64,000 nucleotides of DNA from Cristatella mucedo (taxonomy: Eukaryota > Bryozoa > Phylactolaemata > Cristatellidae). The position numbers and the translations under genes were made by a program. The DNA is taken from NCBI GenBank assembly GCA_009760855.2, contig WPIO01000011.1, forward strand, positions 479,501 to 543,500, in the 5' to 3' direction. Of this stretch, positions 15,495 through 61,513 are shown one piece after another. A model generated the notes under the pieces. The model worked only from the letters and a program-made list of their open reading frames with translations, did not search any database and was not told the DNA's origin. The stretch's first letter is position 1. Each line of letters begins with the position of its first letter.

Positions 15495-15673
15495 GTACCA
15501 TATTGAGAGCTGTCAACCGAAGACGCCAATGCAGTCACATATACCTTTTCTTGCAGCTTGCTGCTAGCCAGATTCAAAAGGAAGCCTATACTTTATTTAA
15601 GGCTCCAGAAATGACTGCAAGCGAGTCATCTGTGCCAGCGACAAGAGAGATGGCAGAGCCACTGGTGGACTAA
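15495..15673 (+). CDS. Last coding exon of IgSF gene copy 0 (cytoplasmic tail)
   Basis: The exon opens after a pyrimidine-rich acceptor (ctactcttgtag) in phase 1 and ends at TAA. A second acceptor at 15,556/15,557 (ttttcttgcag) would give a shorter phase 0 form. The product has a basic start (VNRRRQC) and then EAYTLFKAPEMTASESS. That part resembles the copy 1 last exon, which reads ELYNALEQNAAPEVTSSD: the tyrosine lies in the same place and APE-M/V-T follows. The likely role is a cytoplasmic signalling tail, with only one tyrosine motif (YTLF) here. The rest of copy 0 was not found with confidence upstream. A canonical AATAAA lies about 370 nt downstream. The paralogy is seen in the sequence; the function is inferred. 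Confidence 0.5.
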
Positions 15674-16039
15674 TATTTTGGTGTGTTGACCAGATTGTGT
15701 TAGACGATTACTTCACTGCTGACCTTAGATTTGCAGCGAACTAAGTAAACCCACAAGTCAGACGTAAATTTGAGTCTCCGGGGTTATGTTTCTATCGCAT
15801 TTCAACAAGATTAGACTTATGGCAATAACCTTTCAATTTGGCTGAGTTTGATCCTATTTCAACATACCAGGAAGGCCAGTGGACTTAACAAATAGCAAAC
15901 CACTTTGCCACACAGTCCGGACCTGATCCAGATAATTTCTACTTCCAGATATATAATTAACATTAAATGAGTTTTCTTAAATTAATTAATAGTGCAGATG
16001 AAATTTTATTTCATGAGTATAATCTCCAAGAAACGCCTA

Positions 16040-16045
16040 AATAAA
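16040..16045 (+). terminator. Possible polyadenylation signal of copy 0
   Basis: This is a canonical AATAAA hexamer, the first one noticed downstream of the copy 0 stop codon, about 370 nt away. In AT-rich sequence such hexamers arise often by chance, so only the position supports it. Confidence 0.25.
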
Positions 16046-16082
16046 TGCTTGTAGCTCAGCAGTTAGCAAGAAGTTCATACGG

Positions 16083-16607
16083 TTTTTCCTAGATGACAAA
16101 AAGCTCTTCAGCTGGGCCAGCCAACCAAAAATACTAGTCGTGAAACGGTTATAATATAATGATATTCCCATTCTTCCACCACCTGAGGTCAATTAAACCG
16201 GGAGGCTTAGAATCCAAAGTAACCTGTCGCTCGTTCCTCACTTAATCACAAGAAGCTTTGCATTCGCTCGAGGCCTTTCTCTTTCCCACACCTATCAAAA
16301 AGTATATTGCTTAAGGTGCTGCCAATATGTCACAAATTATGGTAACAGAAATTGCATTATTTTTTTAATCTAATTGTGACATATTTTCAAATGATGAATA
16401 AATTGTTCGTGGTAACAATTTCATTCAGCCTTCGCTTTGATAACCTCTGGACAATATTTTCCGCTGATTTCGGATTATTGGCTGCATCATTTTTTTCTTC
16501 CTCTTCCCACATGCAGGCCACACGTGTATGCGTTTTTTCTAGAAAGCAAAAAGCTCTTAAGCTGGGCCAGCCAGCAAAAACACTAATCAAGAAATGGTAG
16601 AATATTA
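16083..16607. repeat. Pair of 75-bp direct repeats 450 bp apart
   Basis: The segments 16,083-16,156 and 16,534-16,607 share caaaaagctctt, agctgggccagcca and the flanking tttttc-taga and gaaa-ggt. They are too diverged for a recent event. They could be two short elements of an unnamed family. Confidence 0.5.
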
Positions 16608-17852
16608 AATTGTACTGCAACATCTTTACTCTCGATTATATATTCTACCGTAGGTATATCTGCAGATTCTTATTATTGCTCAATATGTATCCGTACTCAT
16701 GCGATCTCAACGAATCCAAAGTTGTTTACCCTTTTGGTATTGTACTCATTCAGTTTTAAACACGAAACTCGTTTAGCCAATAATCCATGTGTTAGTCTAG
16801 AATAGAGCCAATAACACAGTCTTCACAATCATCCATTTCATCTTCACTTATTTTATTAACGTGACAGCACTACACTGATCAACGTTCTATAGATGTTTCA
16901 AGCTATTGACTGAGCGCCACTATCTACTCACTAGATAAGCGACATTGCGGCTTACCAAAGATGTTAAACTAGTAACTAATACTTAGCGTAGCAATAAAAG
17001 CAGACAACCAATAAAATCTGAGATGCTACTCCTAGTTACGTGATTCCACCTTGTGAATGTCAACCCAAGCTTCTGTAAGAATTTAGGGAAATCATAGATT
17101 CAACATCAAAACATGAATATTTAGACCATTAATCATCTCTATCCACGACTGCAATGTAATGTTAGGGAAACGCTTAATATCCAAGAACTGTTTATTTGGG
17201 CTGGCAGTGACCATTCTCTCCTGTTCCTATGTTCGCACTGCCCCGTCTCTGCAGGCCTAACTCATCTTCCATAAAACATACACTCATGAAACATAAATAT
17301 CAGTAAGCCAAAGAGCCACACAATCATAAGACCACAGGATGAGCACCTTAACCATGGGCCAAATTTGAAGCTAAGCATTGTATTGTGAATTCAATTCGAA
17401 AATAATCCCGATCAAGCTTTTGTGCAGAGCTTTATTTAGTTACCTGTTAAAATTCTTAGGAGATTGTTTCTGACTGAAAGGGATAAAATTGAATGGCTTG
17501 ACCAGGACGGCCAGTCTGGGTGACGGTCTGCCGTTAGGTGAGTCATTTAGGTAGTTCCTTTATTTCTGGCCTATAATAAATGTATGGTGTTTTGTATTCT
17601 AATTAAATTGATTGGGTTCGTTTCTAGTAGCCTTTTGGCTGATACGCTTGAAAAATTTAGAGTTGATTTGATTAACGTGTTTAAGTTAGATCCATCAAAC
17701 TAGTCATAATTACCTCATTATTCTTGATCAGCAATACTAAGTTATACGAAAAGTGGTTTTTTTATTAAATAAGATCAGGAGGCATATCACTAATTCAGGA
17801 ATGGTATTAGAGATGGTAAAGGTAAGACTACTACAAGACATGTTAAATGCAG

Positions 17853-17955
17853 ATAATAATCTCATAGTTTCTAACTATGATTTGTCTAAACCAGAGCCAT
17901 ATATAGTTTGTGAAGATGCATATAGTTTGTATCCCACTTTAATCTTGCAATCGTG
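17853..17955 (+). CDS. Candidate first-half Ig exon, copy 1
   Basis: The exon starts in phase 1 after gttaaatgcag. It reads through a B-strand-like PYIVCEDAYS to a Trp whose codon is split by a TG|gt donor (phase 2), 14 residues after the Cys. This mirrors the exons at 30,810-30,924 and 61,447-61,513, which also run from phase 1 to phase 2 and end on a split TG codon. An alternative donor 5 nt downstream (TCT G|GTGACT) would be phase 1. In the cluster it occupies the place that the 51.96 kb exon has in copy 2. The donor gtctgg is weak and the exon is short, so this stays a candidate. Confidence 0.35.
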
Positions 17956-21520: not shown

Positions 21521-21729
21521 TGTGAATCACTTTGGTCGGAGAAGAAAACTGCAAGAAGAACCCGAAATGACTATTGTAAGCAGGATTTCAAGGCATTCTG
21601 TTGGCAGACACCCACTGCAGCATTGGTTCAGCATTCGTCTTGCAACGTCGGTAATTATTTTCAACTGTGTTACGTATGGGGCTGTTACGACATGGTTTCG
21701 AACAAAGACAATCCTCGGTGCTCAGCCAG
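21521..21729 (+). CDS. Ig first-half exon (B to C strands), copy 1
   Basis: The donor is strong (CAG CCA G|GTGAGA, phase 1). The 3' part reads SVIIFNCVTYGAVTTWFR: a B-strand Cys followed after eight residues by a C-strand Trp, with the WFR typical of V-like Ig domains. It ends in AQPG. The paralogous copy 2 exon at 56,698-56,826 ends YRS..VQPG at the same splice phase. The 5' edge is uncertain. The start given follows ctacacgctttag and gives phase 2; phase 0 starts at 21,504 or inside the ORF are also possible. The next exon, 182 nt downstream, is another first-half exon, so the two may be alternatives. Confidence 0.5.
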
Positions 21730-21911
21730 GTGAGATCGTGCTACAGTAATATCATATTCATGACGCTTCTTCCACTAAATTCATTTGTTAATTTAATATA
21801 GTTAAATAATAATAATTTAATATTTAAAATAATGTTTCGCTAGCTTTTGGACTAAAATATGTTTACTTAGTGCCATTTTAGTTGTAATTTAGAGTCACCA
21901 TATCGCTGCAG

Positions 21912-22061
21912 CACCACTACCTATGGCCGAGGTTGATGCCATACGAATAGGAACAGCTCAAAAGCTAACCCTCATCTGCAGACGGTATAATGGTTTGCCT
22001 GTATGGAAGTACAGCAACAGTTACAGAAACCTGCGATTCGTCGAATTGGATACGATTCCAG
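21912..22061 (+). CDS. Ig first-half exon (A to C' strands), copy 1
   Basis: This is a 150-nt symmetric phase 1-1 exon with acceptor tatcgctgcag and donor CCA G|GTATTT. The 49 full codons read as a textbook Ig A-to-C' segment: an A' strand, then KLTLIC (B-strand Cys), RRYNGLPVW (C-strand Trp nine residues later) and KYSNSYRNLRF. It ends IPG, like the QPG end of the previous exon. Joined to the next recognised exon at 25,913 it makes one complete domain, with the F-strand YxC supplied there. This is one of the most convincing exons of the cluster. Confidence 0.7.
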
Positions 22062-22125
22062 GTATTTTAACAGACTGTCATAGCTAGATCTATAACATAT
22101 ATGCTGGTGGCACATCTGTATACAG

Positions 22126-22195
22126 AAACTGCTAAAAACACAACCAATCTTCGCTCAGTATTTCACGAACTGTTGGTTTACATGCACCCTGCAAG
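22126..22195 (+). CDS. Doubtful Ig F-strand exon
   Basis: Between cag at 22,125 and a GTAGAT donor, frame 0 reads QYFTNCWFTCTLQ, which could be an F-strand ending WFTC. The donor would be phase 1 like the rest of the gene, but the acceptor would be phase 0 and so does not join to the preceding exon. The phase 1 frame is also open but lacks the Cys. The pyrimidine tract is poor. It may be a relic or chance. Confidence 0.2.
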
Positions 22196-22824
22196 GTAGA
22201 TATCAAGGGTTTAGATCGGAAGCTAGGTTTTTTAATTTCCTAGCTACTGTATATCATCAGGTAGTGGCAGAAGCTTAACATATCTTGTGTAGTTACTTTA
22301 AAGTTATATGATGGCATTTAATTTATCCAAAGTAAATTATTAGAGTTTGATACTTTAGACGTTTAGCAATAATGATGCATTTATTAAAATTCTCCGTCTC
22401 GGTAAACGTAACCGCTTTTACTTATACCCTGGTTTATTTCGACTGCTACATTACTTTGCCGATTTACCTAAATTAAGAATCGTGCAATAAAAAATATTTC
22501 AATTCACAGGCGGCTCCAACATTGAATAGCTTCGATTACTTAATTCCGCTACTGCATGGAAACCTATTTTCAGACTGTTACTTACTAATTTCTACACTTG
22601 CCCATAAATGGATTGCTTATATGGGCCTAATGCCGATTAGGCGGCGGTTGAATGGAAATGCTGAAGCACTTCCGTACTTGAGTGTGTACTTGAATATTTA
22701 TCTCCGCGGCTAAGCAAGCTTCCTACTCATTAGTAGTGGCATGGGCTCATAAAAACTATGGTCGGACTAGAAGAAGTTTTACACTATCTATGCCTATCAA
22801 ACTGCATCAGCTATAACACTAATT

Positions 22825-23170
22825 TTATTAATAATACATTTGATATAGAGCCCTCAGATAACTCAATCTCTTTCTAGGCACTTTAAAATGTGTAGCAAAG
22901 CAAGCACGATCGAATGGTTAGTGGAAGCTATCTCAATAAAAACAAGAATAAAATGGCTAGGGGTGACATTTACAGAGTCAGCATGAACGTGTGGTTAGTG
23001 GCAGCATGGGCAGTGTCAGCAGGCGTAAGCACATAAAGGTCAAATCATACGGACCCACTAAATACCGTGATAAATATATGCATTTTTGTTTCTTTTTAAA
23101 GGTGAGGTAGTCAGGAGATTTCATGACGCAAGTCGAGAGTAAGCTTCATGCTTTTGGAACATATTCCTTC
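22825..23170 (-). mobile_element. LINE family 1 3' end
   Basis: The conserved block (ccctcagataactcaatctc, then gtggttagtggcagcatggg) is present in minus orientation. Only UTR and a scrap of the C-terminus remain. Confidence 0.65.
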
Positions 23171-23315
23171 GAACTACACGTCGTCAGGATAAATTCACCT
23201 TTATTTTATCTCTGATCCGATGATGGCTAGACTAGCTTAAAGACTGCAGAGGGAGTGCTCACGCCTGCCTAATTATTTAAATTAGAAATCTAAGTTTATG
23301 TGACATATTTTAAAG

Positions 23316-23449
<134 letters not shown>

Positions 23450-23584
23450 CAGTGTAAATGCGAACGATGCTGCAATTATTGTGCTGTATTAGCACAAAGG
23501 AGCTGCTGGCACCACAGTGCGAACTGCCCGGAGATTGCCCAGCCAACGACCTCGGCGACTACGACGACGACTATCGAACCGACT

Positions 23585-24235
23585 AGGGGAGTTCGATCGA
23601 GTTAAGAATAAGCTGCGAGCTGCGAAAGCCTTTCGCATGCTGTGCTCGCCCGATGTGTTCGTCCGTCAAGTCTCCCGTCACTGACTCGATCGGGCAGTCT
23701 CCAGCCTGGATGGCATGCCATTGTCTGATCTGGAGCGTTCGCGATACCTGAGCCCAGCAGACTTTTGCACAGGCAACAGGGTTGCCCCGAGTTCCCTGTG
23801 GTCGGACGTGCGTCAGTGCCTCAAGCGGCTCTCCTGTCGCCTCTCGCTGACCGGTCCTGAAGTGCTGGCTGCCTTGACGTCGTCGAGCACTGGGTCGTGC
23901 CACGAGTGGTCATCACGGAGCTGTGAGAGTTCTCCAGGCTCGTGGAAGGCCGTGCTTGGGCGGCCCAGCCTGCACAATGCAGAGTCAGCCGCTGCCTGAC
24001 CACAGACACATTCGCCATTCGCAGTCACTTCTTGACCATGGGTCTTGGCCAGTCGTTCCGGGCTTGGTGGTTTGTGCACCGAGCACGCCTGGACGTGCCA
24101 CCAGTGGCTGCTGCCAGGAGTCGGCCATACCCTGGGGCGATTAACAGCTGCCGCCTATGCCGCAGGGAGACCGCTTGCCACGTGCTGAGCCATGCCGGTC
24201 GATGCTGCATGACGTCACGACCCAACACAACCTAG
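23585..24235 (+). mobile_element. GC-rich R2-type non-LTR retrotransposon C-terminus, decayed
   Basis: The block is much richer in GC than its surroundings. The last plus-strand frame reads FRAWWFVHRARLDVPP, then NSCRLCRRETACHVLSHAG and C. The C-x2-C...ET-x2-HVLxH pattern is typical of the zinc-binding region after the RT of R2-type elements. Upstream frames (DVRQCLKRLSCRLSLTGPE) need frameshifts. A family 1 LINE fragment begins directly after it. Confidence 0.5.
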
Positions 24236-24279
24236 TTCTACGCCGTCTAATCTGAGCTCCTCCGGTAACCTACCACATC

Positions 24280-25010
24280 TAAGTTAGTCCATGCATTCGT
24301 GACATCCCGTCTCGACTTCTGCAACTCATGCTTACTGGCCTACCAGCACGTGCGATCAGGCTATTGCAGCTGGTGCTAAACTCTGCAGCTAGGCTTGTCT
24401 GTCGTGAGCCTCCCAATTGCCACATTACTTCATTTCTCGCCGACCTGCACTGGCTACCAGTCAAGCAACGGATTGACTTCAAAGGTTTTGTCGCTCACTT
24501 TTAGGTCCCTTCATTCTATGGCTCCAGCCTATCCATCAAGTATACTACCCCACCAGGCCAAGCATCGTACCACCTGCTTTTCGGAATCCAACAGTCTGCA
24601 AATACCTCGTACAAACCTTAAATCCTTTGGAGACCGTGCATTTAGTTAGTATGCTCCCAAAGCCTGGAACTTCCTCCCGACCTGCGTCAAAACATCCCCT
24701 GACCTGACCATATTTAAAAGGAACTTAAAAACACACCTATTTAGGACAAGCATTTAGTGGGTCCCTGTGATTCGTCCTTCATGTGCTTATGGGTGCTGAC
24801 ACTGTGCATGCTGCCACAAACCACATTTGCATGCTGACCCTGTGCATATCGCCCCTAACCATATTATTCATTTTGTTTGTTTTTCACGCACGATTTTACT
24901 TACCATTCAATTGCATTTCCCTTTGCAGCAAATGTAAAGCGCCTAGAAAGAGATTAAGTTCTCTGAGGGCGCTTTATCAAGTGCATTATAGTTATTATTA
25001 TTATAACCAG
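24280..25010 (+). mobile_element. LINE family 1 C-terminal domain and 3' end
   Basis: The plus strand carries the C-terminal region (LDFCNSCLLAYQHVR-like, then a frame with LHSMAPAYPSSILPHQAKHR), the UTR and the full 3' hairpin gcgcctagaaagagattaag with an ATT-rich end. At least one frameshift is present. Confidence 0.8.
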
Positions 25011-25039
25011 GCTCAATTACTAGCCGGCAGGCTGCACCC

Positions 25040-25200
25040 TCTCGCTTTCCGGTGTAATGTAATGTTATGTAATGTAATATATCTCCATCTGTAACTCTAC
25101 AAAGCCATGAAGACTATGTAGAATTGCACAGGAGTTTTGTATAGCTCAATTACAGCCTAAGCTGCTTTCAGTACGCATTCGGAACCCGGGTCAATGCCAA
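25040..25200 (-). mobile_element. LINE family 2 3' end
   Basis: The segment from ggtgtaatgtaatgttatgt to ggaacccgg matches 60,420-60,545 closely (aaagccat, ggagttttgtatagctca, acagcctaag, gtacgcattcgg). Read on the minus strand it ends in TTACA units, a LINE-style pentanucleotide tail. Confidence 0.6.
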
Positions 25201-25211
25201 TAGGTTCATGC

Positions 25212-25393
<182 letters not shown>

Positions 25394-25912
25394 GCATAAA
25401 GCCGTCGCATGACGCAGGGAACGTTGCCCGAGTTTTAATGCAAGATAACTTCTAGCCATTCTGACATTAAATTTATTTCTGGATAACTAGTCATCTGTAA
25501 CGAGTATTTATAATTATTAATTTACCCTAGGCATGACATCGCACCCATAAGAGTGGAAATATATTAGTTTTGTAATTATTGCTTGAAACAACTACTTTAC
25601 TTTCTGAACTCTTGGCATAACAGTTTCGCCGAGCTAAAGCTAGCAATAATAAAATCCGAACGACTGAATTCAGATCGCGAATTTTGCTTCCCTCAATTTT
25701 TTAAAGAGTTAAGTAACAGCACTCTCAATCTTTCTTTCTTAAAGCTGCACTTAAAAACCATCGAGCGATACCTTTTCAATACCATTTCTTCTCACCCTGC
25801 ATTCGTTGTGCCTGCATTTTTTACTCCCTGCCACCTAAGAGTCTAGTAAAGTCACTGAATTCACTGGATTTAGAGCGGCAGTAAAGTTTAATCAGATATT
25901 TATTTACACCAG

Positions 25913-26071
25913 ATTTTGTACGAGACCCAGCGAGAATGCTGGTTTGCACTGAAGGATCATATCCATGCCACGAGCAAACAACCACTGTCGTGTTTCGTCC
26001 AGAACTGGGTGGTGTGTATCAATGTGCCGGCGCACCTAACGACACCTTCAATATTATATGGATCAATGAAA
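25913..26071 (+). CDS. Ig second-half exon (D to G strands), copy 1
   Basis: This is a 159-nt phase 1-1 exon with acceptor tttatttacaccag and donor GAA A|GTAAGT. It carries MLVCTEGSYPCHEQTTT, an F strand ELGGVYQCAGAP and a G-strand-like end FNIIWINE. The copy 2 exon at 59,553-59,702 has the same C-x6-C-x18-C spacing and shares TT, F, LGG-x-Y-x-C and I-x-WIN-x-S. The two Cys before the F-strand Cys suggest an extra disulphide in addition to the usual B-F pair. The join to the exon at 21,912 and to that at 30,810 is in frame. Upstream lies an AT-rich intron with long TA tracts, downstream a 4.7-kb intron with a LINE and an LTR. Confidence 0.75.
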
Positions 26072-27483
26072 GTAAGTTACCACAAAATTGAATTATTTTA
26101 TTATCCATATAATTGTATCGCCAAAGGAGGAAATACATGTGCGACAGCCATTCATTACAAAGCTCGTTTTATTGTTACTACGGATACGCTAGTTAGCGAA
26201 TGCCTGACTTAATAGCAATTTGTTCAGTCAGAGAATTTCGGGATAGCGGTGTTGTGGTTCCAAATGGGAATTTTTTGCAACTTCAGCCGGCCAGTTTCAA
26301 ACTCTATCACGTAGTCCTTTCTAAGAAGCTGAACGCGAATGCTCATTCATTGACCACAACAGAGACGTTGTTGAAGTGACATAGAACGGAAAGTTTTTCT
26401 TTACCTGTCACAACTTCAAGCTGGAGATGTGGCAATGCCCAAAGATCCAAATTTGTAGCCAGTGGCACAGCTTACCACTAACGCATTTGTAGTAGGCAGA
26501 GCTCAATCTTTAACTGTGCAAAAACACCTAAAAATGGCACGGAGGCCATGTGTTGGTATGCTGCCACTTCGGCTATAGCAGGCAGGCACACGCCCGCATG
26601 AAGTTGCATTGAATGCAAGAGAGTACATGAACCAACAAGAAGAAATTTCTTATTCATGACTTGACATCACCAGTCATGTAACGCTCGGCACCAGATGCAG
26701 CATCAACAGTGGCAGCAGAGTTTTATGAAAAGGTTTTGGCAAGCGTCACATCTCAGGCGACCAGTTTGTGAACAAGTAGAACCTGTGCGTTTTACACCAA
26801 CGATCAATTAGCTTTTGGGTTCTTCACTAGTCAGTCGTGCATAGCAACCCTCCTGAAGTGATTGGCTGTTCAGTCAAGCGGGATAATGTGGCCGGCTCAA
26901 TGCCACGTGCTAACTTTACTGTAAAAAGACGGCCACAGCTGCGGAGCGTGACTCGGGGGATGATGGTGTGCTGCTAGGTTGCCTACGGCATCGATATGTT
27001 GATATCATAATCAATGTGTATCGATATCGACATATCGATATCGATATCGATATCAATATCGATATATATCCATATACCACCTGCGGCCGCTATGCCGATG
27101 AGAACTCCTCAGGAATTGCTTGGCGTTTTACTACAGGTGCTTACAAGCAGTGCTTCTATAGTCACGTGCATGCTAGGAAAATAAGTCCCGGACTTCGTAA
27201 CTTCGCATCTAGGTTCGGACTGAGGACTTTCTATAAGTTCTCTGATTTACGTTTTAAATAAGTTTAGCTGATTACAATCATATCGGCAAACTAAGGAGAT
27301 AAAGTAGTTAAAATAATTAAGGTTCTTTTTAATTTCTAGCCTGCTCGGATAGCGTTTTTTGCGATTACGACCATTTTAAGGCCGATCAACCCCCCCCCCT
27401 CCCAGTAACCCATAAGCCGAAATCCCAGCACTCTTAACTGGGAATACCGAGGATTGCAGTATATTAGGGAGACTTAATGCATA
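26072..27483. other. Intron of copy 1 with no clear element; ATCGAT repeat near its end
   Basis: A GC-richer stretch at 26.4-26.95 kb has no readable frame. At 27,020-27,068 the sequence is a perfect or near-perfect atcgat hexamer run. Confidence 0.4.
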
Positions 27484-28148
27484 GTGGAAGAGCCAGCTCA
27501 AAATCTAGTCACTGCTTTTCACTATAAGTCAGCATTGTTTAGGGTGTACAACGACCTACTTAGGAATGCAGACATAGGTAGAGTGTGTTTCCTTGTTCTG
27601 CTCGATCTTTCGGCAGCTTTTGATACTATCGATCACAAAGTTCTTCTAGAAAAACTCTCATCTCGTCTGGGCATCACTGGCACTGCTCTGCAATGGTTCA
27701 GATCGTATCTCAGTGGGAGACTCCAGAGTATTAACGTGAATGAACAAAGATCATCTGAGGTACCTCAGAAATATGAGGTGCGGCAGGGCTCCATGCTGGG
27801 TTCGGTTCTTTTCACTGTCTATACTCTCCCTCTTGCTGATGTGATTGCTAAGCACAATCTAGGCTTTCATTTCTATACGGATGAAACTCAGTCGTACCTT
27901 TCATTTGATCCCTCACAGCCTTCAAGCACCTAGAATTCTCTCAACTCACTTGCTGCATGTATTGACGACATCCTCACATTGATGGCATTAATTTTTCTAA
28001 AACTAAACGACGATAAAACTAACTTACTAGTTATGGGCAAAACTAGTGTGATTCAGAAATTGGAAAGGCTGACGTTCAAAATCGGCTCTGCCAGCATATC
28101 TCCCGTTAAATCAGATCAAAATCTAGATGTCAAGTTCCAAAGTGACCT
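27484..28148 (+). mobile_element. LINE family 1 RT fragment, 5' segment
   Basis: The frame reads a good RT core: FLVLLDLSAAFDTIDHKVLL (motif A), GITGTALQWFRSYLSGR, RQGSMLGSVLFTVY (motif B) and FHFYTDETQ, where motif C should be YADDTQ. The following frame has MGKTSVIQKLERLTF. It is cut at 28,148 by the 892-bp insert and resumes at 29,041. Confidence 0.85.
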
Positions 28149-28303
28149 TGTAACCGCATAGAAGCTCGTTCACCGGTTCTCTACCAGTGGACTGTTTGAT
28201 GCAGTGCTGCAGTGCGGTTAAAACACAGGCGGCCACAACTGGGTGCCGAAAGCAACAGTTTATTGTGGGCCTGTTAGTAGTGGTTACGTGCCGGCGCAAG
28301 CGC

Positions 28304-28441
28304 TTTACGCGGCACGCACCGGGACCGACGGAGTTAACTGCCCGAACTCCCGAAGCCCGAGTACAACCAACTACCCTGTGGGTTTACGCGGCTCGTACCG
28401 GACCGACGGAGTTAACTACACGAACTCCCGAAGCCCGCGTA
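28304..28441. repeat. 79-bp tandem duplication inside the LTR
   Basis: Two copies of tttacgcggc-cgyaccgg, accgacggagttaact and cgaactcccgaagcccg lie 79 bp apart, as often seen in LTR U3 regions. Confidence 0.7.
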
Positions 28442-28762
28442 TAATACACTATACTATGCGCGAGTCGCTAGCGATTGTGAAGGCGGGTTGCTACAGCACC
28501 CCAAGATGCGAGCAGCTGAGTAGCCGGCAGAACACAACTGCTCAGTCTAAGTTGCACTTAGCTGGTCGTCGCCGTAGGTTCGTCTCTCGTGCTCTCGAAG
28601 CTTCGTAGTCTCGCATCGACTACCAAGCTGCAGCCCGAGCTCTCGGGGCGTAGTCTCTGCTCGACTACCCAAGCTGTCCCCCGAGCTCTGTCACTCGTCT
28701 CATTATCTTCTCTCTCCTCTCAACTCCTGACCTCGCCCGCAGCTGCTATTTCTACTTCAGCA

Positions 28763-28985
28763 TATTAGTCGGTGCACATCCTGACCGAAACGTCTGCACC
28801 AGGCTTCATTCTAACTTTAGCGGGTAGACCAGGAGCCGGGCTTGTACTAGGTGTCCAAGTCGAACCCGCTAAGACAACCACGTTAGTCGGTCCATCTCCT
28901 AACCGCATCGCCTGCATAAAGCTCCATTCTAACCTGAGCTAGGTGAGTCCGGAGCTGGGTTGGTGCTAGGTGCATTAGTCGACCC
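28763..28985. repeat. 118-bp tandem duplication inside the LTR
   Basis: The units starting ttagtcgg at 28,765 and 28,883 share cctgaccg/cctaaccg, gcttcattctaac/gctccattctaac and gctgggttggtgctaggt-like ends; a third ttagtc is at 28,975. Confidence 0.6.
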
Positions 28986-29040
28986 CCCTTCCTAAGGCAA
29001 GGGCTCCCGTCGCGGCTAAGCTGAGAGCTGCACCAGTGCA

Positions 29041-29330
29041 ACCTCTCGTTAGACGACCACATCAGTTCCACGGTGAAGTCTGCCTACATTCAGCTACATA
29101 ACATTTCTCAAATTCGGGATTGTTTAGATGAGGATACCACGTCTAAGCTGTTTCATGCATTTGTGACATCTCGTCTTGACTTCTGTAACTCACTGCTTGC
29201 TGGCCTAAAGGCACGTGCAATCAGGCGATTACAGCTGGTGCACAACTCTGCAGCTAGGCTTGTCTGTCTTGATCATCTCAGTTGCCACATTACACCACTT
29301 CTCGCCGACCTGAGGGTTCGGGATGCTTAG
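29041..29330 (+). mobile_element. LINE family 1, 3' segment after the LTR
   Basis: The LINE resumes with acctctcgttagacgaccac and reads QLHNISQIRDCLDEDTTSK, then SRLDFCNSLLAGLKARAI and ARLVCLDHLSCHITPLLADL before it stops. The 3' end is missing. Confidence 0.8.
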
Positions 29331-30180
29331 TAGCTCGCTTCCTCTCCGTAGGCGTAGAATGATTCAAGTGAACTTTATAATGCGTGGCGAATGTTTTTAA
29401 AAAAGCGACAGAGTGAAAGAAACCGGACTTTTATCGTTAACCTCTTACAGTGCTAGGGTCGATCAATATGGAAGGCCCGGAACCAGCTGCCTGAAGGGTC
29501 CGAACGCTACCGGTGCCAGGCCTTCTGCCACCGGCCGCTCCCTCCCCAATTACCAGACCCAGCAGGCTCGAGGTCATTAACTAATGGAGGGCGTCCACCT
29601 GAGGGAAATTCGGCAGCCTTCATTCGCCAGGCGTCGCTTTGTTGCTAAAGCTACCATTCGGCCACTGGCCACCTTGGGCTTCCAGCGTCTTTTTTTGCAG
29701 AGCATGGCAAGATCAACGTTTTTCATGCAAAAAAACTGACTGTTTAGTAAATCCGCATTGAAGCTCTTAAACGCGAAAATCTTGCAGCCAATCACGTACA
29801 TTATTTTAAACATCATTCCATGCGAGTAAACTTAAACAAGCTCACTTCTCAAATAACCTGTGCGATTTTGTTCGAGTAGAGCCTTAAGTGTGTGATAATC
29901 GATGCAGCGACTCAGCTGCCTAGTAAACGGCCGCAAAAACTTATTTCCATCAAAAGGTAGCAACTGATTCCCGACTCCCCCTCAAAGCCGAAATGGCTTT
30001 TGGTGCACCATTGTTTAATTTAAGACCCCATATCTCCATAAATTCGGCCATGTGCTGATCGTGAAATTTTATTTTACGCGCTTTACATTAGTATAAACCT
30101 TACTGTTTGAGCTCTCCGATTGGCTTCAGAAAACTCTCTGGATAATACATGCTTAGTCTTTCCGGATTTGTGGAGTAAAG
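29331..30180. other. Copy 1 intron, no recognised element
   Basis: Short frames only. A minus-strand frame at 29,577-29,816 has no recognisable motif. Confidence 0.4.
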
Positions 30181-30285
30181 AATAATAATAATAATGCAGT
30201 TAATATAGCCCCCTCAGAGAACTTAATCTCTTTCTAAGTGCTTTACATTTGCTGCAAAGTGAAATGCAATTGAATGGTAAGTTCC
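30181..30285 (-). mobile_element. LINE family 1 3' end, short
   Basis: Only the terminal hairpin (ccctcagagaacttaatctc) with an AAT tail remains, about 100 bp. Confidence 0.7.
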
Positions 30286-30809
30286 ATGCCGAGATAATGC
30301 CTGCATGCATTTTAGAATCGTGAAATACCAAATAACATCTCAAAATATTGCGTGTTTGGTAATTTTAGCAATTACTTTAGTCTAAAAGATAAAGAGGGAG
30401 AGGAGGCGTGTGTGAGTTTCTGTGTGCGTGTGTGAGAGAGTGAGTGTGTGCGTGTGTGTAAGCCCCAGCCAATGTAATTGATTAACAATTTGTGACATAA
30501 TTTCATGTTCAAACTCAGCAATTGCTCCTTCGTTTCGTATAGCACCAATAGAGCCGAGATATACACCAACTACATGTCCTAGACACAGTATGGCATTCAA
30601 ATGTACACAATACATCTAAGCCAAGACCTGCGATAAATTGATATCATAATTATGTATAGCTGATGCTCGTATAAATCTTAAAACTTAGTGAAGAATACAC
30701 ACCAAACTATTTTTGGGTTTGAGTACAGCTTTGTTTATTTTGAAAAGTTTCACCTTGTAGATTATAGATTTTGGCTGACAGCAATGCTATAGTTATTTGT
30801 ATTTTATAG

Positions 30810-30924
30810 CAGTGGTAGTCAATCCTCCAGTGATTGCCAAAGAAGCTTACCTAACGAAAGTGTATGTGCCGTGCACGACGTACTTTAAACCACTAGATGC
30901 TCCTTTCTCGAGAGAAGTAAAATG
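30810..30924 (+). CDS. Ig first-half exon ending on a split Trp codon, copy 1
   Basis: The acceptor is gtattttatag (phase 1) and the donor AAA TG|GTAAGT (phase 2, near-perfect consensus). The 37 full codons give an Ig A-to-C segment: VVVNPPVIAKEAYLTK, then VYVPC (B-strand Cys), CTTYFKPLDAP and REVK, with the conserved Trp split as TG|G by the intron. Copy 2 has the same design at 61,447-61,513 (FHPC...FI-TG|). A phase 2 partner that starts with G lies at 31,261. The exon at 33,134 is phase 1 and cannot follow directly. Confidence 0.65.
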
Positions 30925-31260
30925 GTAAGTACGTGATATTCTAAAATAAGCTAAAAGGTCACCTGCCTCATAAGTCATTGCTAAGTCTGCTGATTGATTT
31001 GTTCTTGGTTTTCTTATGCATCCTGAAAACGACTACTTTGACACTAACCAATTGCATGCCCTCCTTTCCATCGAGTGTAAAGTGCATAGACAGGCATAGT
31101 TTAGTTCAACTATAGAGCTTCATTACTAATAATAAATCATTTTATAAAGCGCCTTAAGGGAAATCAACCTATAGGTCATCAGAACCACTTAAGGGCTTAA
31201 GTAAATTATTCTTCTTTGCTTGGGCATGTCTTGCCATTTAATGCATCTGTTCTGCTTTAG

Positions 31261-31327
31261 GGCAGATCCCAAGCTAATTATTAAGAGGAACATTTTATCA
31301 AAATATGCTAAGTTCTTTACGTTGGAT
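31261..31327 (+). CDS. Candidate Ig second-half exon completing the split Trp
   Basis: After a very good acceptor (ctgttctgctttag) the first base is G, which completes the TG|G Trp codon of the exon at 30,810. The reading continues ADPKLIIKRNILSKYAKFFT. That fits an Ig E strand (LII), the turn NI and an F strand (KFFT), but Leu stands where the F-strand Cys should be. A stop follows at 31,334. The only late donors are GAT|GTACCA (phase 0, used here) or a phase 2 site, and neither joins directly to the phase 1 exon at 33,134. The acceptor and first half are well supported; the 3' edge is not. Confidence 0.35.
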
Positions 31328-31640
31328 GTACCATGAGTTTTCGGTTTTATTTATAAGCCTTAAGATGCAAGGGTTTATTGATTGCACTATTTATAGAACT
31401 GTTGACTATCGTAGTGAGCAGTACTTAAAGATGATTTCGTGTGGATTTCGTGTGGTTTTTGTGTGGTCTTGCTAGGTGCTAGCTATATGTAACTGAACTA
31501 TCCATGACAAAGGAGCAAGATAAACGTTGTTTCCACAGAGAAAGCCTGGAGTGTAGGCTCCCAAAATAAATCAATAAATAATATAAATAAATGATTCTTC
31601 AATAAATAATTAGAGTTCCTAATCAAAAGTATATGAAGTA

Positions 31641-32395: not shown

Positions 32396-33133
32396 TATGG
32401 AAAAGTTACAGCAGTGTTACTAGGCAAAGAGAAGCTCAATGTTTAGCATAAATGAAAAAGATTTGGTGAATAAAAGGTTGGAACCAGGTGATCACTTTAT
32501 AGCCTGACGGCCAGCAAGGCTAGCTGCTTTCAACACAGGAGTTGGTCTACAAATGACCCTCCTAATTACACGGTAGATCGGGCAAAAATATTTCGCAAAG
32601 CCATTCACATACCACCTTCGACCAGATCAGAATACGAATCAATATATCTCACTTGAAGTGCTATCATAATACAAAAAATATTTACCTTATTTTTTCTTTT
32701 GAATTACGTCCTTTGTTATGGGTATGCTGTTCCGACAAATCGTTCTAGCGTATTGTGTCCATATGGCTGCTCTTGCAGATCAAGAGCTGTTCCACGTTTA
32801 GCCATTCGTTTAGGCTCAATTTTATTGATGAAATACGTGCATACTGGCTGGGTGCCACCGAAGCAATGAATGAAGGATATTTGAAGTTGGTCTAAAGTCC
32901 ACCCTATATGTGGGGGTAGAGGAAGAGCCTAGATTTTTATCGAGTGGCCAAGACCTGTAAGATTTTCCTGTCAGGGAGGATTGGCAATTGGTGGAAATTT
33001 GGCTTGCACAATAATTGTTTTTATGTGACTCAAGCTCAGCGGCCGTTCATCTATTAGAATTAGGACATACTTTCTTCTTTGGTAATAGTTGGTTATGGTC
33101 ATCCGCCCACTTCATCGTGTTTATTTTCTATAG
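32396..33133. other. Copy 1 intron, no recognised element
   Basis: Nothing assignable. An acceptor near 32,779 (gctgctcttgcag) would create a TGA with the TG| donor of 30,924 and was not used. Confidence 0.4.
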
Positions 33134-33367
33134 AAGCTCATTTGAAGCACGTGACTCCGCGTAGGTTTTTCACTAACCAAATCTATAGATCAGTCGACGT
33201 CAGTGGTTGCTGCGATGGAGACTACTCCTTTGACAGTGGAATATCACCTTCACCGCCCCGGCTAGTGATACACAGCTTCAACGCGTCTCGTCATGCTGGG
33301 ACGTATTTCTGTGCCATGAAAGTGGACTCTTACCCAAGACAAATAGGTGGAACCGGTCAACTATATG
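33134..33367 (+). CDS. Ig second-half exon with GTYFC F strand, copy 1
   Basis: This is a 234-nt phase 1-1 exon with acceptor tttattttctatag and donor TAT G|GTAAGC. It reads a C'-D region (RRFFTNQIYRS...), then RLVIHSFNASRHAGTYFCAM, a classical E-F motif with an N-x-S glycosylation site just before the F-strand Cys. The upstream partner with a B-strand Cys and phase 1 donor is not fixed; 25,913-26,071 could join in frame, as could an undetected exon. A second acceptor at 33,086 would lengthen it. It begins the six-exon chain that is open without interruption to the stop codon at 44,914. Confidence 0.7.
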
Positions 33368-33774: not shown

Positions 33775-33854
33775 GTAGCTGCACCTTACTTAGGCATCCA
33801 GCTTGATCCATTATCGCATCGAAGCAATCGGCTCAATGCTTCGTTTCGTTGCAG

Positions 33855-34007
33855 CTAATTTTGATGACAACTTTTTCTGCACATCGAAGCAAGAAGACTT
33901 CCCCTTTCCTCAACCAAGGCTATCCGCTTCAACGATTACTGTGATGGGCCAGAAAGAAATTAAGTTCCCAAAGGTTGAGAAAAGTGAAAACAAGACGGCA
34001 AACGCTG
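33855..34007 (+). CDS. Ig F-G strand exon and membrane-proximal stalk, copy 1
   Basis: A 153-nt phase 1-1 exon follows tttcgttgcag and ends GCT G|GTAATA. Joined to the previous exon it reads IENIA-ANFDDNFFCTSKQED, so DDNFFC is the F-strand D-x-x-x-C motif of that domain. A hydrophilic, Lys/Glu-rich segment follows (KFPKVEKSENKTANAG) with an N-x-T glycosylation site, which suits a stalk before the membrane. Its donor base G plus the GT of the exon at 39,041 makes Gly, so it can be spliced straight to the transmembrane exon. Confidence 0.7.
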
Positions 34008-39040: not shown

Positions 39041-39157
39041 GTGCTGGTGGGTCGTTAACGGGAATCGTCCTTGGTCCGACGATTGCATTATTCTTCTTCG
39101 TAGGGGCTGGCATTCTCGGCCATTGGTATTACACGAGATTCTTGAAAGAAATCCAAG
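39041..39157 (+). CDS. Transmembrane exon, copy 1
   Basis: A 117-nt phase 1-1 exon follows acceptor ttctacctgtag and has donor CAA G|GTATAC. It starts with a flexible GAGGS, continues as one hydrophobic span of about 23 residues (LTGIVLGPTIALFFFVGAGI and on) and ends with HWYYTRFLKEIQ, aromatic and then charged residues. That is the layout of a single-pass type I helix with a cytoplasmic stop-transfer end. A LINE of about 1 kb begins some 15 nt beyond the donor, so the intron was invaded right behind the exon. The upstream flank is also open for about 200 nt, so the acceptor choice rests on consensus and phase. Confidence 0.65.
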
Positions 39158-44642: not shown

Positions 44643-44914
44643 GCAAATTAAATTTTTCGCAGTCTTCGAAAGCGTTACATCGCATACCAAAGATTTCCCT
44701 ATCTAGCATTGAATTATATAATGCACTAGAACAGAACGCGGCTCCTGAGGTAACTTCATCAGATTTTGACTACTTGAGGCTACGAGAAAGCGAACAAAGT
44801 CAGTTCACCTCGAGAAGGCCTATGAGTCTAGATGGGGGACTAGTAGACGCCCACCACGACGTTGTAACGTCACGTGGTGCGCAGAGTGTAGCCCTGTTGA
44901 GAGACATTAATTAA
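44643..44914 (+). CDS. Last exon with two YxxL motifs (ITAM-like tail), copy 1
   Basis: The frame is open to TAA at 44,914. The acceptor after ttttgtaccaaaag is phase 1 and fits the preceding exon; an alternative at 44,662 (tttttcgcag) is phase 0. The product contains IELYNALEQ and DFDYLRLRES, two YxxL motifs with 14 residues between them. A classical ITAM has 6-12, so this is ITAM-like only, and neither motif is a strict ITIM. Downstream lie SRRPMSLDGG, a possible basophilic kinase site, and a hydrophilic end. A GAG|GTAACT inside could act as a donor and remove the second motif. Part of it aligns with the copy 0 tail (APE-V/M-T). Confidence 0.55.
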
Positions 44915-56697: not shown

Positions 56698-56826
56698 ATA
56701 TCATTCATTCCAGAGAAATGGTCTCATTGCGGTCCAAATTGGTAAAGCTGTTGGTCCTAACCATGGGAGACTTCAGCGGATTTCTGGTGGCTTATCGCAG
56801 TCGAGCAACTGTAAACGTACAACCAG
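56698..56826 (+). CDS. Ig-like exon ending QPG, copy 2
   Basis: A 129-nt phase 1-1 exon follows a good acceptor (gataccatttttgcag) and has donor CCA G|GTGACG. It reads SKLVKLLVLTMGDFSGFLVA and ends YRSRATVNVQPG. The C-terminal part lines up with the copy 1 exon ending at 21,729 (hydrophobic B strand, a G-rich turn, F/Y-R-T/S-K/R, then x-QPG at the same splice point). Both hallmark residues are changed: Met stands for the B-strand Cys and Ala for Trp. It is therefore a divergent or decaying paralogue. It joins in frame to the exon at 59,553. Confidence 0.45.
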
Positions 56827-56891
56827 GTGACGAATGACTTTGTAAGCTCTTCTAAATATCCCTATCTATTCATAATTCTTTATCATTTCAG

Positions 56892-56977
56892 TACGCTTAG
56901 TTATTGAAATTTCCAGAGATAGGGCGCATTTGATTAGTGACATACTGTGTGCAATCGATGAGAACGCCAGCTTTTAA
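56892..56977 (+). pseudogene. Ig first-half exon with premature stop, copy 2
   Basis: After a strong acceptor (ctttatcatttcag), only 65 nt behind the previous donor, the phase 1 frame reads RLVIEISRDRAHLISDILCA, an A'-B segment with the B-strand Cys, then IDENASF and TAA. The position and phase match the copy 1 exon at 21,912-22,061 (KLTLIC). Just after the stop another frame gives LKTFSNTH, which loosely resembles WKYSNSYR of that exon, so a small indel may have broken it. Skipping it keeps the chain 56,698 to 59,553 in frame. Confidence 0.4.
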
Positions 56978-59552
56978 AGACGTTCAGCAACACTCACATT
57001 TACTTTGCCCAGTCTCCGGCTACCGCCGGCTCCCAGATATTTTGTAATACGTTTCAGCTCCTCTTCCGGCTATCGAGGCAAGCTCGCTGAGGCTCAGTGA
57101 CGCACAGATTCTGACACTGACTTGCCGTGCTCTTAATGCAGTTCCTCAATGGATGATTAGTACCACTTTTTTAAACCCTACTTTCATTAATCCTATGGAC
57201 AGAATCGATGGCGGTAAGTTTACAGCTGACCTTTGTAACAGAGGATCCTTTGCTCTCCCGCCACTGAATTCTTTGTTTCACTCCTTTCGAGTGAATCTCT
57301 CCTAAGCAGGTAGTTTCATCATAGGGCCATTCTTGGCCCATAATATATCATCATATATAAAGTCGTGATCAGTAAGTTTCATGTGCTAATTTAAGAGTAT
57401 TTAACCAGCAATAAAGCGATAAGGCTGTACTAGTTTCTCTGATTGTTTCTCTAAATCTGCTTTGGCAATTGATTGCTTCGCTCTCATAAAATTTAGTACC
57501 GATTTCTGCAATCACAAATGCTCCATCTTTCACTTCCGTCAGCATCCACGCTGCGAGGTTAGGGAAATATAAAACATTGTAGCTTTTTCCTATGAAGTTA
57601 GGCAAGCCTTGAACGATTCGCGGCAGCAAAGACTACCTCTGCAATTTATACTTCTGGGAAAGGTCAGGTTTTGTCTGTATTGTATGCAAGTGTCTATTTA
57701 ACTTGTAGAAAGTAAAGGATGGCTTTTTTTAATAGAAACAATCTCACTAGCCTTATTTAGAAAGTGCCATTCGAGCCATCACTGCCACTTGCAGTGGGCA
57801 ATACAGGGTTGCCTGCGGGACTCAAAACCAAGAACCTGCGAAGCAAAGTTTGAGCAACTTATCCCTGGAATAAGACCCGGCATTGGTTTATAAACGTGTG
57901 TGTGTGTGTGTTTGCGCATCTGTAAAATCAGCTGGAAAAGCCATTCAGTCGTCCTTCGTCCGCTCAGCACGCCAAACAATGTTTCCCCCCCCCCCTTTTA
58001 GATACTCGCAGCGCTGTCCCATCACCCTCCTGAGCCGCCACCGAAGCTGCCGCGATAGCACTCTCACCTGATCCCACCTGATCTCACCTGCCCTACCACT
58101 GGTTCATAACATCGGCTTCCTCAGCCCTCTCAGTAGGCACTAGTAGACAAAGCTTTAAGAACGCTCAGTAGCGTCGGCGGTAGCTTGCGTTCAAACTTTT
58201 GAAAATCTTCGAGCTAAGCCGGCGCACGAGGAGACTCGCGAGTTAAGCGTTCGCATGTCGTAATGGTACTTCGCTTCCGGGTTGGACATTAGCCCGGAGC
58301 CTGGGGCTCTTGCCTTTCGGGAGTTTCCAAAATCGCCAATTAAACTTGTTGCCCGCTGAAGAAAGTCGGAATTAGTTTTTTTCATCAGTTTTAAACTCCC
58401 GAGTGTCTAAAAAACTGGCAGCTGAATATTGTTTTTTTAATGAGAAGTGCTGCCAATCACTTCTTCCTCCATCGGGCTTTTCTAATCTCGTTTGCGAGAC
58501 AATGCTCGAACGAATGCGTGGTCATTACTTTGAGAATGGAAATTTATTCTCGATTTTGGCTTAGCCATTAGGTCTGAGGATATCCCAGGTGATAATAAGT
58601 TGGCAACCAGCACATGCCTATCTCTGCACGGTAGTCAAAAAACGGCGAGGTAGCATAGCTCTCGCCTTTGAATTTGACGGCCATTTATTCAACTAGTGTT
58701 GTGATAAGAAATTTTCATTTCTTATTGTCATGATATCTCCTTGGTGGATTACTGTTTGGTTCGATAATTCAGGCTTCAAGCTCAGCTACAACTAGAGAAT
58801 GGAAAGGAAATTGAGAACTTTTTTTATAAATTCAAAAAACAGGAATTGCTTTTTTAATACTCAGATACGCACTTTATTATACAGCTGTCGCTGAGTCATC
58901 GTGATGGTTATACATAGTAAAATTTTACAAATGCGGATAGATCAGACCTTTCTCTTCATCTTGGTCATCCTATCTCCGGTTTGCATTGTCCATGATCGAT
59001 AGCATTAACCGTTTACTGCAGAATTAATTCAATGAGGTTACCGAAAGAAACCGACTTCTACACTGGAAGTGTAATAGAAGGGTTTTCTGCAAAGGAATCC
59101 TTATTAAAACGAATACTCTTAATTGATGGTACTATAACTCCCTGCATTTGGCTGAATTAATTTCCCTGTTTTTATTTGAATCTCTGTCTCCCTTTTCCTA
59201 ATAGTATCCTTTCGCATTAGCCGAACTAATTTATATCTGTTTATTTGAATCTCTCTCTCCATTTATTCCAACAGTAAATCCGCCCTCTCACTTTGTCCCA
59301 AGGAATCATGGGTCTCACACCATTGTATCTAGCTTGGAATATATTTCACGGAATCCAGGTCTCTTTGCTTCAGCAAATTGACTACCACTTCAACCACTGG
59401 TCCATTTACTTTATTCACCACGCTGGTTATTGGCTGTTTTAAAAATTAACTGTTGTAACATATTCAATCAGTTGGTAAAATTATTCTGAACGCAAACTCT
59501 TGGTTGATTAAATGTTCACTGTTTACATGAGCAAACCAATTTTCTTGCGTAG
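56978..59552. other. Copy 2 intron, no clear element
   Basis: A short GT tract (57,895-57,911) and a possible minus-strand B-box-like ggttttgagtcccg near 57,820 are the only signals. No exon was recognised. Confidence 0.4.
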
Positions 59553-59702
59553 ATGTCAATATAACGAGCCTGAAGTGTGCGAACTCAGCTGACTCCTGTT
59601 CCCAAGTAATGATTACGACCAAGTTTTACAGTCGTCTTGGAGGAACGTATCTCTGCTCAGCAGTGCCTGAGGAGCGAGTGACCATTCTGTGGATTAACAA
59701 AA
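59553..59702 (+). CDS. Ig second-half exon (D to G strands), copy 2
   Basis: A 150-nt phase 1-1 exon follows ccaattttcttgcgtag and has donor AAA A|GTAAGC. It reads SLKCANSADSCSQVMITT, then SRLGGTYLCSAVPEE and TILWINK. Against the copy 1 exon at 25,913-26,071 it keeps C-x6-C-x18-C exactly and shares S-x-x-C, TT, F, LGG-x-Y-x-C, P and I-x-WIN-x-S; it is three codons shorter at the front. The middle has diverged strongly. Preservation of Cys, frame and splice sites with a changed interior suggests selection on the fold, not a fresh duplication. Confidence 0.7.
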
Positions 59703-60183
59703 GTAAGCCCGCATTTTATTTCTAGCATTATCTAGAAACTATTTCTTTTTGTTTGCGTTCCCTTCTATTTGCCAATACGAACCTCTGCCGCTTAGGTTAG
59801 ACGCAGGGCAGTACATCTTAGCAGCTGCTTCGCTCTCACCGTTCCATTACGCTTTTTCACGATTCTCCACCTGACGTCAGCTTCTGTCAGAATTTCCTGT
59901 GAAGTTACGAGTGCCTGCTGTCGCTGCTGTAGTAGGCCCTTGCTTATGAGCCGTCGTTAGCCACTACTGCGTCAGTGCTCTCCTAGTAAATTAAGCTGCG
60001 CATGCCATTTCTGTTTCCCGGACTCCGATGCTGACCGGTGCTTTTCTCTAATTATTGCAAGCAATAACTCTGTTGTTCGCACGATCAACACAGAAAATTT
60101 TTGGGTTAAAAAAAAGTTTAAATAATAGGGATGGTCCACTTCTGTTGACACGCTCGACCATTATATTTATTATAAGACGGATT

Positions 60184-60320
60184 GCCGAGCTGGTTTGATC
60201 CAGCGGTTAAAGTTCTCGCACCAACCAAGGTCTGGCTGAGGTCGCTGGCTCGAGCCTCGAGGCATACGTGAAGTGCCTGAATAGTGATTGAGTTCTCTTG
60301 GGCACTGAACAAATAAATTA
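60184..60320 (+). mobile_element. tRNA-derived SINE
   Basis: The copy has gccgagctggtttgatccag (A box), gctggctcgagcctc (B box), gtgcctgaatagtgattgag and an AAATAAATTA-type tail. It sits in the copy 2 intron after the exon at 59,553. Confidence 0.7.
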
Positions 60321-60420
60321 AATTTAAATGAATTAAATATATGTTGGCATTTGAGTGCGTGCGTGAGTTGAAATTCAAAATTCTTTTTTAAGCAACTTTT
60401 TGCAAGTGACTTTAAAGGCT

Positions 60421-61085
60421 AATGTAATGTAATGTACCTCCGTCACTTTAACTCCACAAAGCCATAAATACTGTGTTGGTGTTACGCAGGAGAGTTTTGT
60501 ATAGCTCACTCACAGCCTAAGCGGCTTTCGGTACGCATTCGGTAGCCAACAGACTTCGTCTCACGCAACAAAGAGAAAGTGGGAAGCGTAGCAGAGTCAG
60601 GAGAGCAGTAGAGGTAGTGAGTAGCATGGAAGTAGCAGCTCAGGACAGCTGTAAAGGATGAGCCATAGTCGGCAGTAGGAGAGTAGTTGTCGTTGCGTAA
60701 GAATTGTGAAAATGAGTTTCACAGCCTAGGACCTGCAGAGCTAAAGCTTCTGTAGCCAACTGTCTTTAAAGCGGAGGAATGGGACAGCTAATTTATTGTC
60801 CACACAGGACCTGAGGGTGCGAACAGGCTGAAACTGATGCAGCAGTTCAGCTAGGTACGAAGGAGCCAAGCCGTGGCGGGCCTTGTGGGTCAACGTAAGA
60901 ACTTTGCTCTGTATCCTTTGCTCAACCGGCAACCATCCTAGCTCTTTCAGCAGAGGTGACACGTATTCAAACCGCTGGGACTTGAAGACCAACCTTGCAG
61001 CCATATCCATAGCTGTAGTGGCATAATAGATTTCTTTGGTAGCCCAGCCAATAGGGAATTACAGTAATCAAGCCGCGACAGAACT
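60421..61085 (-). mobile_element. LINE family 2 C-terminal domain and 3' end
   Basis: The minus strand reads DMAARLVFKSQRFEYVSPLL, then GWLPVEQRIQSKVLTLTHKA and HGLAPSYLAELLHQF, the C-terminal domain of a second L2/CR1-like family. It differs clearly from family 1 (no LPHQAKHRT block). Its 3' end carries a TTACA tail. Confidence 0.7.
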
Positions 61086-61446
61086 AAGGAGCTAGTTAAA
61101 TTTTTTACAAGCCACTGTGGGAGACAGCTCCTATTCTTGGATAGGGATCGGATGTGATGGCTAGCTGTATGGAACTAGAGCTATATTTCATTCTAAATAT
61201 GGAACGACGAACGTCTTTTGCATTTGTACTGAGATTCCTCAAATTTACGAATTTGTTAACAAAACTTGGCTTGCTTTTCTCTGTTCCTCGTAAATTGTCC
61301 TGACTAAGTAATTGCAAGTTAAGCCTGCATGTATTGCTCGCGCCTGTTGCTCGTTCTTGCGCTTTATAATTCCAAGTTGTATAAGCGCTCTCTGTAATGA
61401 CTAAACTAGATGCAAATAACGATCTGTTTTGTGGCCTCATCCGCAG

Positions 61447-61513
61447 ATAATGACTCACCGGCTGACAGGATTTTCCACCCCTGCAAGTCGTTCGATTACA
61501 AGATATTTATATG
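61447..61513 (+). CDS. Ig first-half exon with split Trp codon, copy 2
   Basis: A 67-nt exon follows gtggcctcatccgcag (phase 1) and ends ATA TG|GTCATT (phase 2). It reads DSPADRIFHPCKSFDYKIFI plus the split Trp. This is the arrangement of the copy 1 exon at 30,810-30,924: a PC at the B-strand Cys, then an xVxW or xFIW end with TG|G. The Cys-Trp distance is shorter (9 instead of 16 residues), and the donor gtcatt is weak. No phase 2 partner starting with G was found before the window end. Confidence 0.45.

Follow-up and report, generated by a model that had tools for sequence, protein, structure and literature searches.

A tandem array of predicted three-immunoglobulin-domain receptor genes in the bryozoan Cristatella mucedo, and its possible role in recognition

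The stretch of Cristatella mucedo DNA analysed here (the window; 64,000 nucleotides) corresponds to positions 479501-543500 of the plus strand of contig WPIO01000011.1 in assembly GCA_009760855.2, hereafter C22, and window coordinates are C22 coordinates minus 479500. It lies within an array of at least five same-strand genes that, according to searches of the flanks and of the genome (572,011,866 bases in 688 contigs), extends over about 240 kb of C22, with a sixth copy on contig C114. We number the tandem copies R1 to R5 in their order along C22 and refer to the remaining copy as C114; all gene models were built from genomic sequence alone. The window contains the fourth copy, R4, from its signal exon to its membrane exon (21567-39157), and the start of the fifth, R5 (56718-59702), which continues beyond the window end at C22:543751-551404. 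The common gene plan is a signal exon, three immunoglobulin (Ig)-like domains that are each split over two exons (A and B, G and C, D and F) and a membrane exon, joined by introns of phase 1, 1, 1, 2, 1, 1 and 1. The features of the two genes in the window are as follows.

21567..21729, plus strand: predicted R4 signal-peptide exon; ATG start, phase-1 donor CCAG/gtgaga (donor score 6.8), open
21912..22061, plus strand: R4 exon A, first half of Ig1; phase 1-1, paralogous exons in R1, R2, R3, R5 and C114
25913..26071, plus strand: R4 exon B, second half of Ig1; phase 1-1, extra Cys pair C-x5-7-C, G-x-Y-x-C
30810..30924, plus strand: R4 exon G, first half of Ig2; phase 1-2, donor divides the Trp codon TG/G
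33165..33367, plus strand: R4 exon C, second half of Ig2; phase 2-1, HAGTYFC, copies in R1, R2, R3, R5 and C114
33541..33774, plus strand: R4 exon D, first half of Ig3; phase 1-1, copies in R5 and R2
33855..34007, plus strand: R4 exon F, second half of Ig3; phase 1-1, FDDNFFC, the exon after D in R3 and R5
39041..39157, plus strand: predicted R4 membrane-helix exon; phase 1-1, basic stop-transfer
44663..44914, plus strand: candidate R4 cytoplasmic tail, unproven; YNAL and YLRL, open frame only
56718..56826, plus strand: predicted R5 signal-peptide exon; hydrophobic start-codon exon, phase-1 donor
57058..57213, plus strand: R5 exon A, first half of Ig1; match to R4 exon A
59553..59702, plus strand: R5 exon B, second half of Ig1; match to R4 exon B, last R5 exon inside the window

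When the open frames of the window were compared all against all with repeats masked, the two A exons (21912-22061 and 57058-57213) matched at a blastp value of 7e-11 and the two B exons (25913-26071 and 59553-59702) at 5e-9. All four exons are preceded by AG, followed by GT and in phase 1. An initial annotation of this stretch had described plus-strand units whose exons match and agree in order and phase, and this is borne out for two units in the window. Identity at codon positions 1, 2 and 3 is 0.57, 0.57 and 0.31 for the A pair and 0.51, 0.55 and 0.29 for the B pair, while the 150-base intron flanks of both pairs are 0.44-0.49 identical. The blastp values, the shared splice phase and this codon-position pattern, set against the intron flanks, indicate that the A and B pairs are old coding paralogues and not chance matches. 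The signal exons sit 182 bp (R4) and 231 bp (R5) upstream of exon A and are weakly alike, with 96 of 1000 shuffles scoring as high; exons G and F of R4 (30810-30924 and 33855-34007) were added by comparison with relatives. Across the window, exon-like segments of phase 1-1 number 15 on the plus strand and 6 on the minus strand, and the remaining eight phase classes 3-11 and 4-7, respectively.

The extent of both units had to be redrawn. For the first, originally placed at 17.9-44.9 kb, the ectodomain and the membrane exon stand, and the start moves from 17.9 kb to the signal exon at 21567; for the second, placed at 51.7-61.5 kb, an ectodomain unit is indeed present, starting at 56718 instead of 51.7 kb and ending past the window at about C22:551404. 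The island at 51.7 kb has no counterpart in the 224 kb surrounding the window (best other match E 0.9), and those at 17.9 and 61.5 kb, read by eye, fit none of the exon profiles described below. An Ig-like end at 19.28-19.38 kb that seemed to pair with exon C (blastp 4.9e-5, other frame) was likewise dropped, as it fits no three-copy profile.

Further copies, which the initial annotation had suggested might exist, were found upstream on C22 (R1, R2 and R3) and on C114. Within the 224 kb surrounding the window, exon C matches C22:424.5 kb (1.8e-11, R3) and 549.0 kb (8.4e-7, R5), exon D matches 549.4 kb (9.9e-7, R5), and third copies of exons A and B lie in R3 at 405.8 kb (2.2e-13) and 414.3 kb (1.1e-7). 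Exon G is supported by three-way blastp values of 7e-8 to 4e-7 among R3, R4 and R5; exon F, at a blastp value of 0.012 between R3 and R5, is convincing through its position, splice sites and motif. In all three of these copies G ends in TG and C begins with G, so that the tryptophan codon of Ig2 is split by a phase-2 intron. The idea that exon C forms a whole domain was rejected, since relatives place it as the second half of Ig2. Profiles made from R3-R5 recovered their three source copies in the 224 kb, as expected, and nothing else below E 0.015.

An out-of-sample test, in which these profiles were run on 60 kb further upstream plus a 7-kb overlap with R3, yielded R2: all six ectodomain exon types occur once each, in order and on one strand (A 3.9e-8, B 7.6e-17, G 1.1e-10, C 1.1e-20, D 1.6e-15, F 1e-3), and the next-best ectodomain match in the new stretch has a value of 0.093. 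Profile searches also gave six of six ectodomain exons for R1 (3e-18 to 5.2e-7, the latter for exon F) and clear exons A, B, G and C for C114 (2.1e-16 to 1.9e-7). This sixth family member occupies C114:171584-188159, outside the array, and shares 53% identity with R1 across exons A, B, G and C and 31-37% with the other copies; a further weak genome match lies on C653 (E 3.3). Over exons A, B, G, C and D, identity among R1, R3, R4 and R5 (the four C22 copies compared, R2 being left out here and in the dinucleotide check) is 30-36%, which indicates that the copies are old and argues against a burst of recent duplication. The dinucleotides flanking these exons are AG or GT in 40 of 40 cases, a count that is a check and not a test because the borders were picked on such sites.

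Hydrophobic start-codon exons, candidates for the signal peptide, precede exon A in R1, R2 and C114 as well as in R3-R5. Spliced from this exon to the membrane exon, the chains are open in R3 (421 amino acids (aa), 389 when counted from exon A), R4 (431 aa) and R5 (420 aa); in R1 the open chain reaches from the signal exon to D (312 aa), and in C114 from the signal exon to C (238 aa). Two borders in R3 and three in R5 were shifted by 1-2 bases onto the border common to the other copies, which avoids stops. Downstream of F, a hydrophobic phase 1-1 exon followed by basic residues is found in R3, R4 and R5, so that each of these chains has a signal, three Ig domains and one membrane helix. In R3 and R5 this exon ranks first among four candidates. 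In R4, 39041-39157 was chosen by shape, although it is outscored by three candidates that share one upstream frame, the best of which is likewise phase 1-1; the membrane helix proposed for this unit is supported, though not as the best-scoring hydrophobic candidate. Hydrophobic phase 1-1 exons also follow F in R1, which has a single candidate (score 8.6), and in R2, where the best of three scores 3.2.

Five C22 units on one strand, in the same order and with compatible phase-1 introns, could also be pictured as one long Dscam-like gene whose ectodomain cassettes are chosen by alternative splicing. However, a separate candidate signal exon with a start codon is present in every unit, and a separate candidate membrane exon in every C22 unit, which is the pattern of separate genes, and we regard a single Dscam-like gene as very unlikely.

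Five spliced ectodomains (R1, R3, R4, R5 and C114) were scanned against Pfam, and in three of them Ig_3 exceeds its 30-bit cut-off (R1, 34.8 bits, 2.5e-8; R3, 33.0 bits, 8.7e-8; R5, 32.6 bits, 1.2e-7). In the alignment of the same five copies (R2 left out), the B-strand Cys, the C-strand Trp and the F-strand Y-x-C of Ig1 are in register in 5/5, as is the extra Cys pair of exon B. Ig2 has its Cys and Trp in all five and Y-x-C in three, with F-x-C in R1 and L-x-C in C114, and Ig3, aligned for three copies, has both Cys and F-x-C and no common Trp. A purpose-built Ig profile run with hmmsearch gave Ig1 scores reached by 1 of 500 shuffles for R5 and by 34 of 500 for R4; in profile comparison, the Ig1 score was reached by 0 of 100 shuffles and, for the copies taken singly, by 0 of 60 each. 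Run blind over the 1629 frames of the window, this profile separated nothing from noise. Taken by itself, exon D looked non-Ig, with 26 of 60 shuffles reaching its score; joined to F, it falls inside an Ig_3 match. Both the curated profile and the residue pattern place the joined exons, as predicted from the genome, in the Immunoglobulin superfamily. We thus find an exon chain with defined splice phases, an Ig assignment, a membrane exon and tandem duplication at this locus, and consider it very probable that the genes have the anatomy of tandem type I membrane receptors with three Ig-like domains.

Several results weigh against this reading. The Pfam search for Ig domains, which had been put forward as a check, succeeded for R1, R3 and R5 and fell under the cut-off for R4 (Ig_3, 17.1 bits, E 0.0081) and for the partial C114 ectodomain (exons A-C only; Ig_2 alone, 15.2 bits, 0.026); single exons or first-pass joins gave zero Pfam matches, and sequence comparison with PDB chains returned no Ig protein, giving nothing or non-Ig chance matches. 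The signal and membrane exons were selected for their hydrophobicity and for suitable splice sites, R2 was spliced from signal to exon A only, and the membrane profile did not find the R2 exon in the new 60-kb stretch (best value 0.48). On C114, exon D is weak (2.5e-4) with borders that are not fixed, and exon F was not found in the stretch fetched. Finally, no cytoplasmic exon could be paired between copies when the five units were compared.

The last point bears on the tyrosine-motif tail that had been claimed for these receptors and that found no support here: in the five units compared, neither a shared tail exon nor a conserved tyrosine motif of the immunoreceptor tyrosine-based activation or inhibition type (ITAM or ITIM) was found. 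The proposed tail exon at 15.5 kb (15495-15674) has no counterpart in the surrounding 224 kb (best other match E 3.4), and for the candidate frame at 44.6 kb a genome search gave no match at E <= 10 other than the frame itself. The latter is open for 105 codons and carries YNAL and YLRL at a spacing of 14 residues; the best acceptor for it, at 44663, has phase 0, a mismatch to the phase-1 donor of the membrane exon, and phase-1 acceptor-like sites deeper in the frame, judged by eye, retain at most the second motif. By our estimate, about a dozen open frames of this length are expected by chance in the window. This frame could have arisen by chance, or it could be a genuine, unique tail whose linking exon was overlooked; we have not counted it. 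An open frame with EYLRL at 44278-44382 was rejected because there is no acceptor-like site upstream of the motif.

The window is rich in CR1-like retroelement fragments, which occur at many sites, for example at 31870-32391 on the minus strand. Among the matches listed (120 of 1296), the closest relatives of these pieces are 67% identical and lie on short contigs, and the named CR1 elements are from fish or hagfish, at about 50% identity. A piece resembling, by eye, the 3' end of the window's CR1 elements lies at C22:405470-405730, in the first intron of R3 between the signal exon and exon A. Scans of the window for Rfam families and for tRNAs gave no match. The abundance of CR1-like fragments, together with the lack of an assignable tail exon, would suit a set of decaying pseudogenes among retroelements; against such relics stand the three fully open chains of R3, R4 and R5 and third codon positions that are far less conserved than the first and second, and we regard this as the least probable explanation of the locus.

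In protein searches, a 380-residue partial chain had no match at E <= 1 in the 4214 candidate proteins that shared words with it; this query consisted of exons A, B, C (with a wrong start) and D, the membrane exon and the unproven tail, with G and F missing. An alignment of Ig1 found no protein at E <= 10 among 8 candidates. As the search requires exact shared words, distant relatives may exist. An NCBIfam scan gave no match, and scans of GTDB and IMG/VR gave no relative, which means little because neither is an animal collection. The proposal that several genes here form a locus of Ig-superfamily receptors, perhaps belonging to a family not yet described, is supported: there are at least five tandem genes and one elsewhere, Ig_3 passes in three of five ectodomains, signal and membrane exons are in place, and these limited searches yielded no relatives.

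According to the predicted anatomy, which is consistent with a cell-surface receptor or adhesion protein, each gene would encode a protein that starts with a signal peptide and continues through three Ig-like domains and a short stalk to a single membrane helix and a cytoplasmic end. The diverged ectodomains may, at the cell surface, bind protein ligands carried by other cells or by microbes, and signalling might proceed through the receptors' own tails or through partner chains. The row of old, unequal copies could then represent a germline-encoded set of recognition receptors, immune or dedicated to the distinction of self and non-self. A recognition or immune role is our leading guess because allorecognition systems (fuhc-tm, FcoR, Alr) are known to include clustered Ig receptors, and we put it forward tentatively. 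Taking the evidence as a whole, a tandem three-Ig receptor family that serves as a germline-encoded recognition set appears to be the best explanation, and one that we favour with moderate confidence.

Lineage-specific Ig receptors for adhesion or guidance, acting in the nervous system or in tissue patterning and neither immune nor allorecognition proteins, are the most substantial alternative, and we consider them a real if lesser possibility: an identical anatomy would serve, the copies are of old origin and show constraint on their protein sequence, and no common ITAM or ITIM tail was found between them. However, same-strand rows of low-identity copies, here at 30-36%, are more typical of recognition receptor sets. 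Tandem Ig receptors of one plan are also familiar from the vertebrate KIR/LILR and FcR-like families.

The array can be set beside described allorecognition systems. The candidate histocompatibility locus fuhc-tm of Botryllus schlosseri has a signal, three Ig domains and one membrane helix, as in R3, R4 and R5, and a tail without known signalling domains; it differs in having a secreted partner, fuhc-sec, alongside, whereas here at least five tandem copies follow one plan (PMC3691228). The Alr complex of Hydractinia, with 41 members bearing V-set and I-set domains, is similarly described as a multigene family of Ig proteins in one complex (PMC11999971); in the present genes each Ig domain is split over two exons and a tyrosine tail is unsupported. 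The Botryllus FcoR proteins are clustered type I Ig receptors with a signal sequence and a membrane helix; their extracellular part combines a V-type Ig domain, a sushi domain and two Ig domains of C2 type, and their tails bear ITIM, hemITAM or core tyrosine motifs (PMC12065747); here, no Pfam sushi domain occurs in the ectodomains scanned and no tyrosine tail is supported.

Could the array then be orthologous to one of these families, for example fuhc-tm or Alr? The word-based protein searches described above, which depend on exact shared words and used an incomplete chain, returned no homologue. A search for the GH6 domain, which is linked to tunicates, gave no match, but its controls gave none either. 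In favour of orthology, fuhc-tm likewise has a signal, three Ig domains and a membrane helix over many exons (PMC3691228); on balance, we hold orthology to be improbable. A lineage-specific histocompatibility or innate immune complex, that is, an independently evolved tandem three-Ig set that would have nothing but the Ig fold in common with Alr, fuhc or vertebrate receptors and would hold its diversity in germline copies, is easier to envisage, and as a complete proposition still seems to us rather doubtful.

Clustered, diverged Ig receptors are a solution that animals have repeatedly reached for self/non-self and pathogen recognition, and a family for which limited searches found no relatives may offer a further, independent example for understanding how sets of this kind originate. 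The exon model from signal to membrane helix provides domain borders and a locus for work on polymorphism and expression.

Downstream of R5, an open frame at C22:584360-584930 resembles a nuclear receptor ligand-binding domain (Pfam Hormone_recep, 14.6 bits, under the cut-off of 23.5) and may mark the end of the array. An Ig_3 scan of the genome gave at least 149 matches, a lower bound as 150 of 697 candidates were scored, with none on C22 among the matches listed. At least 13 of the matches listed lie on contig C332 at 14.10-14.73 Mb, in open frames of 71-163 residues, and may represent a second cluster of related Ig genes in this genome.

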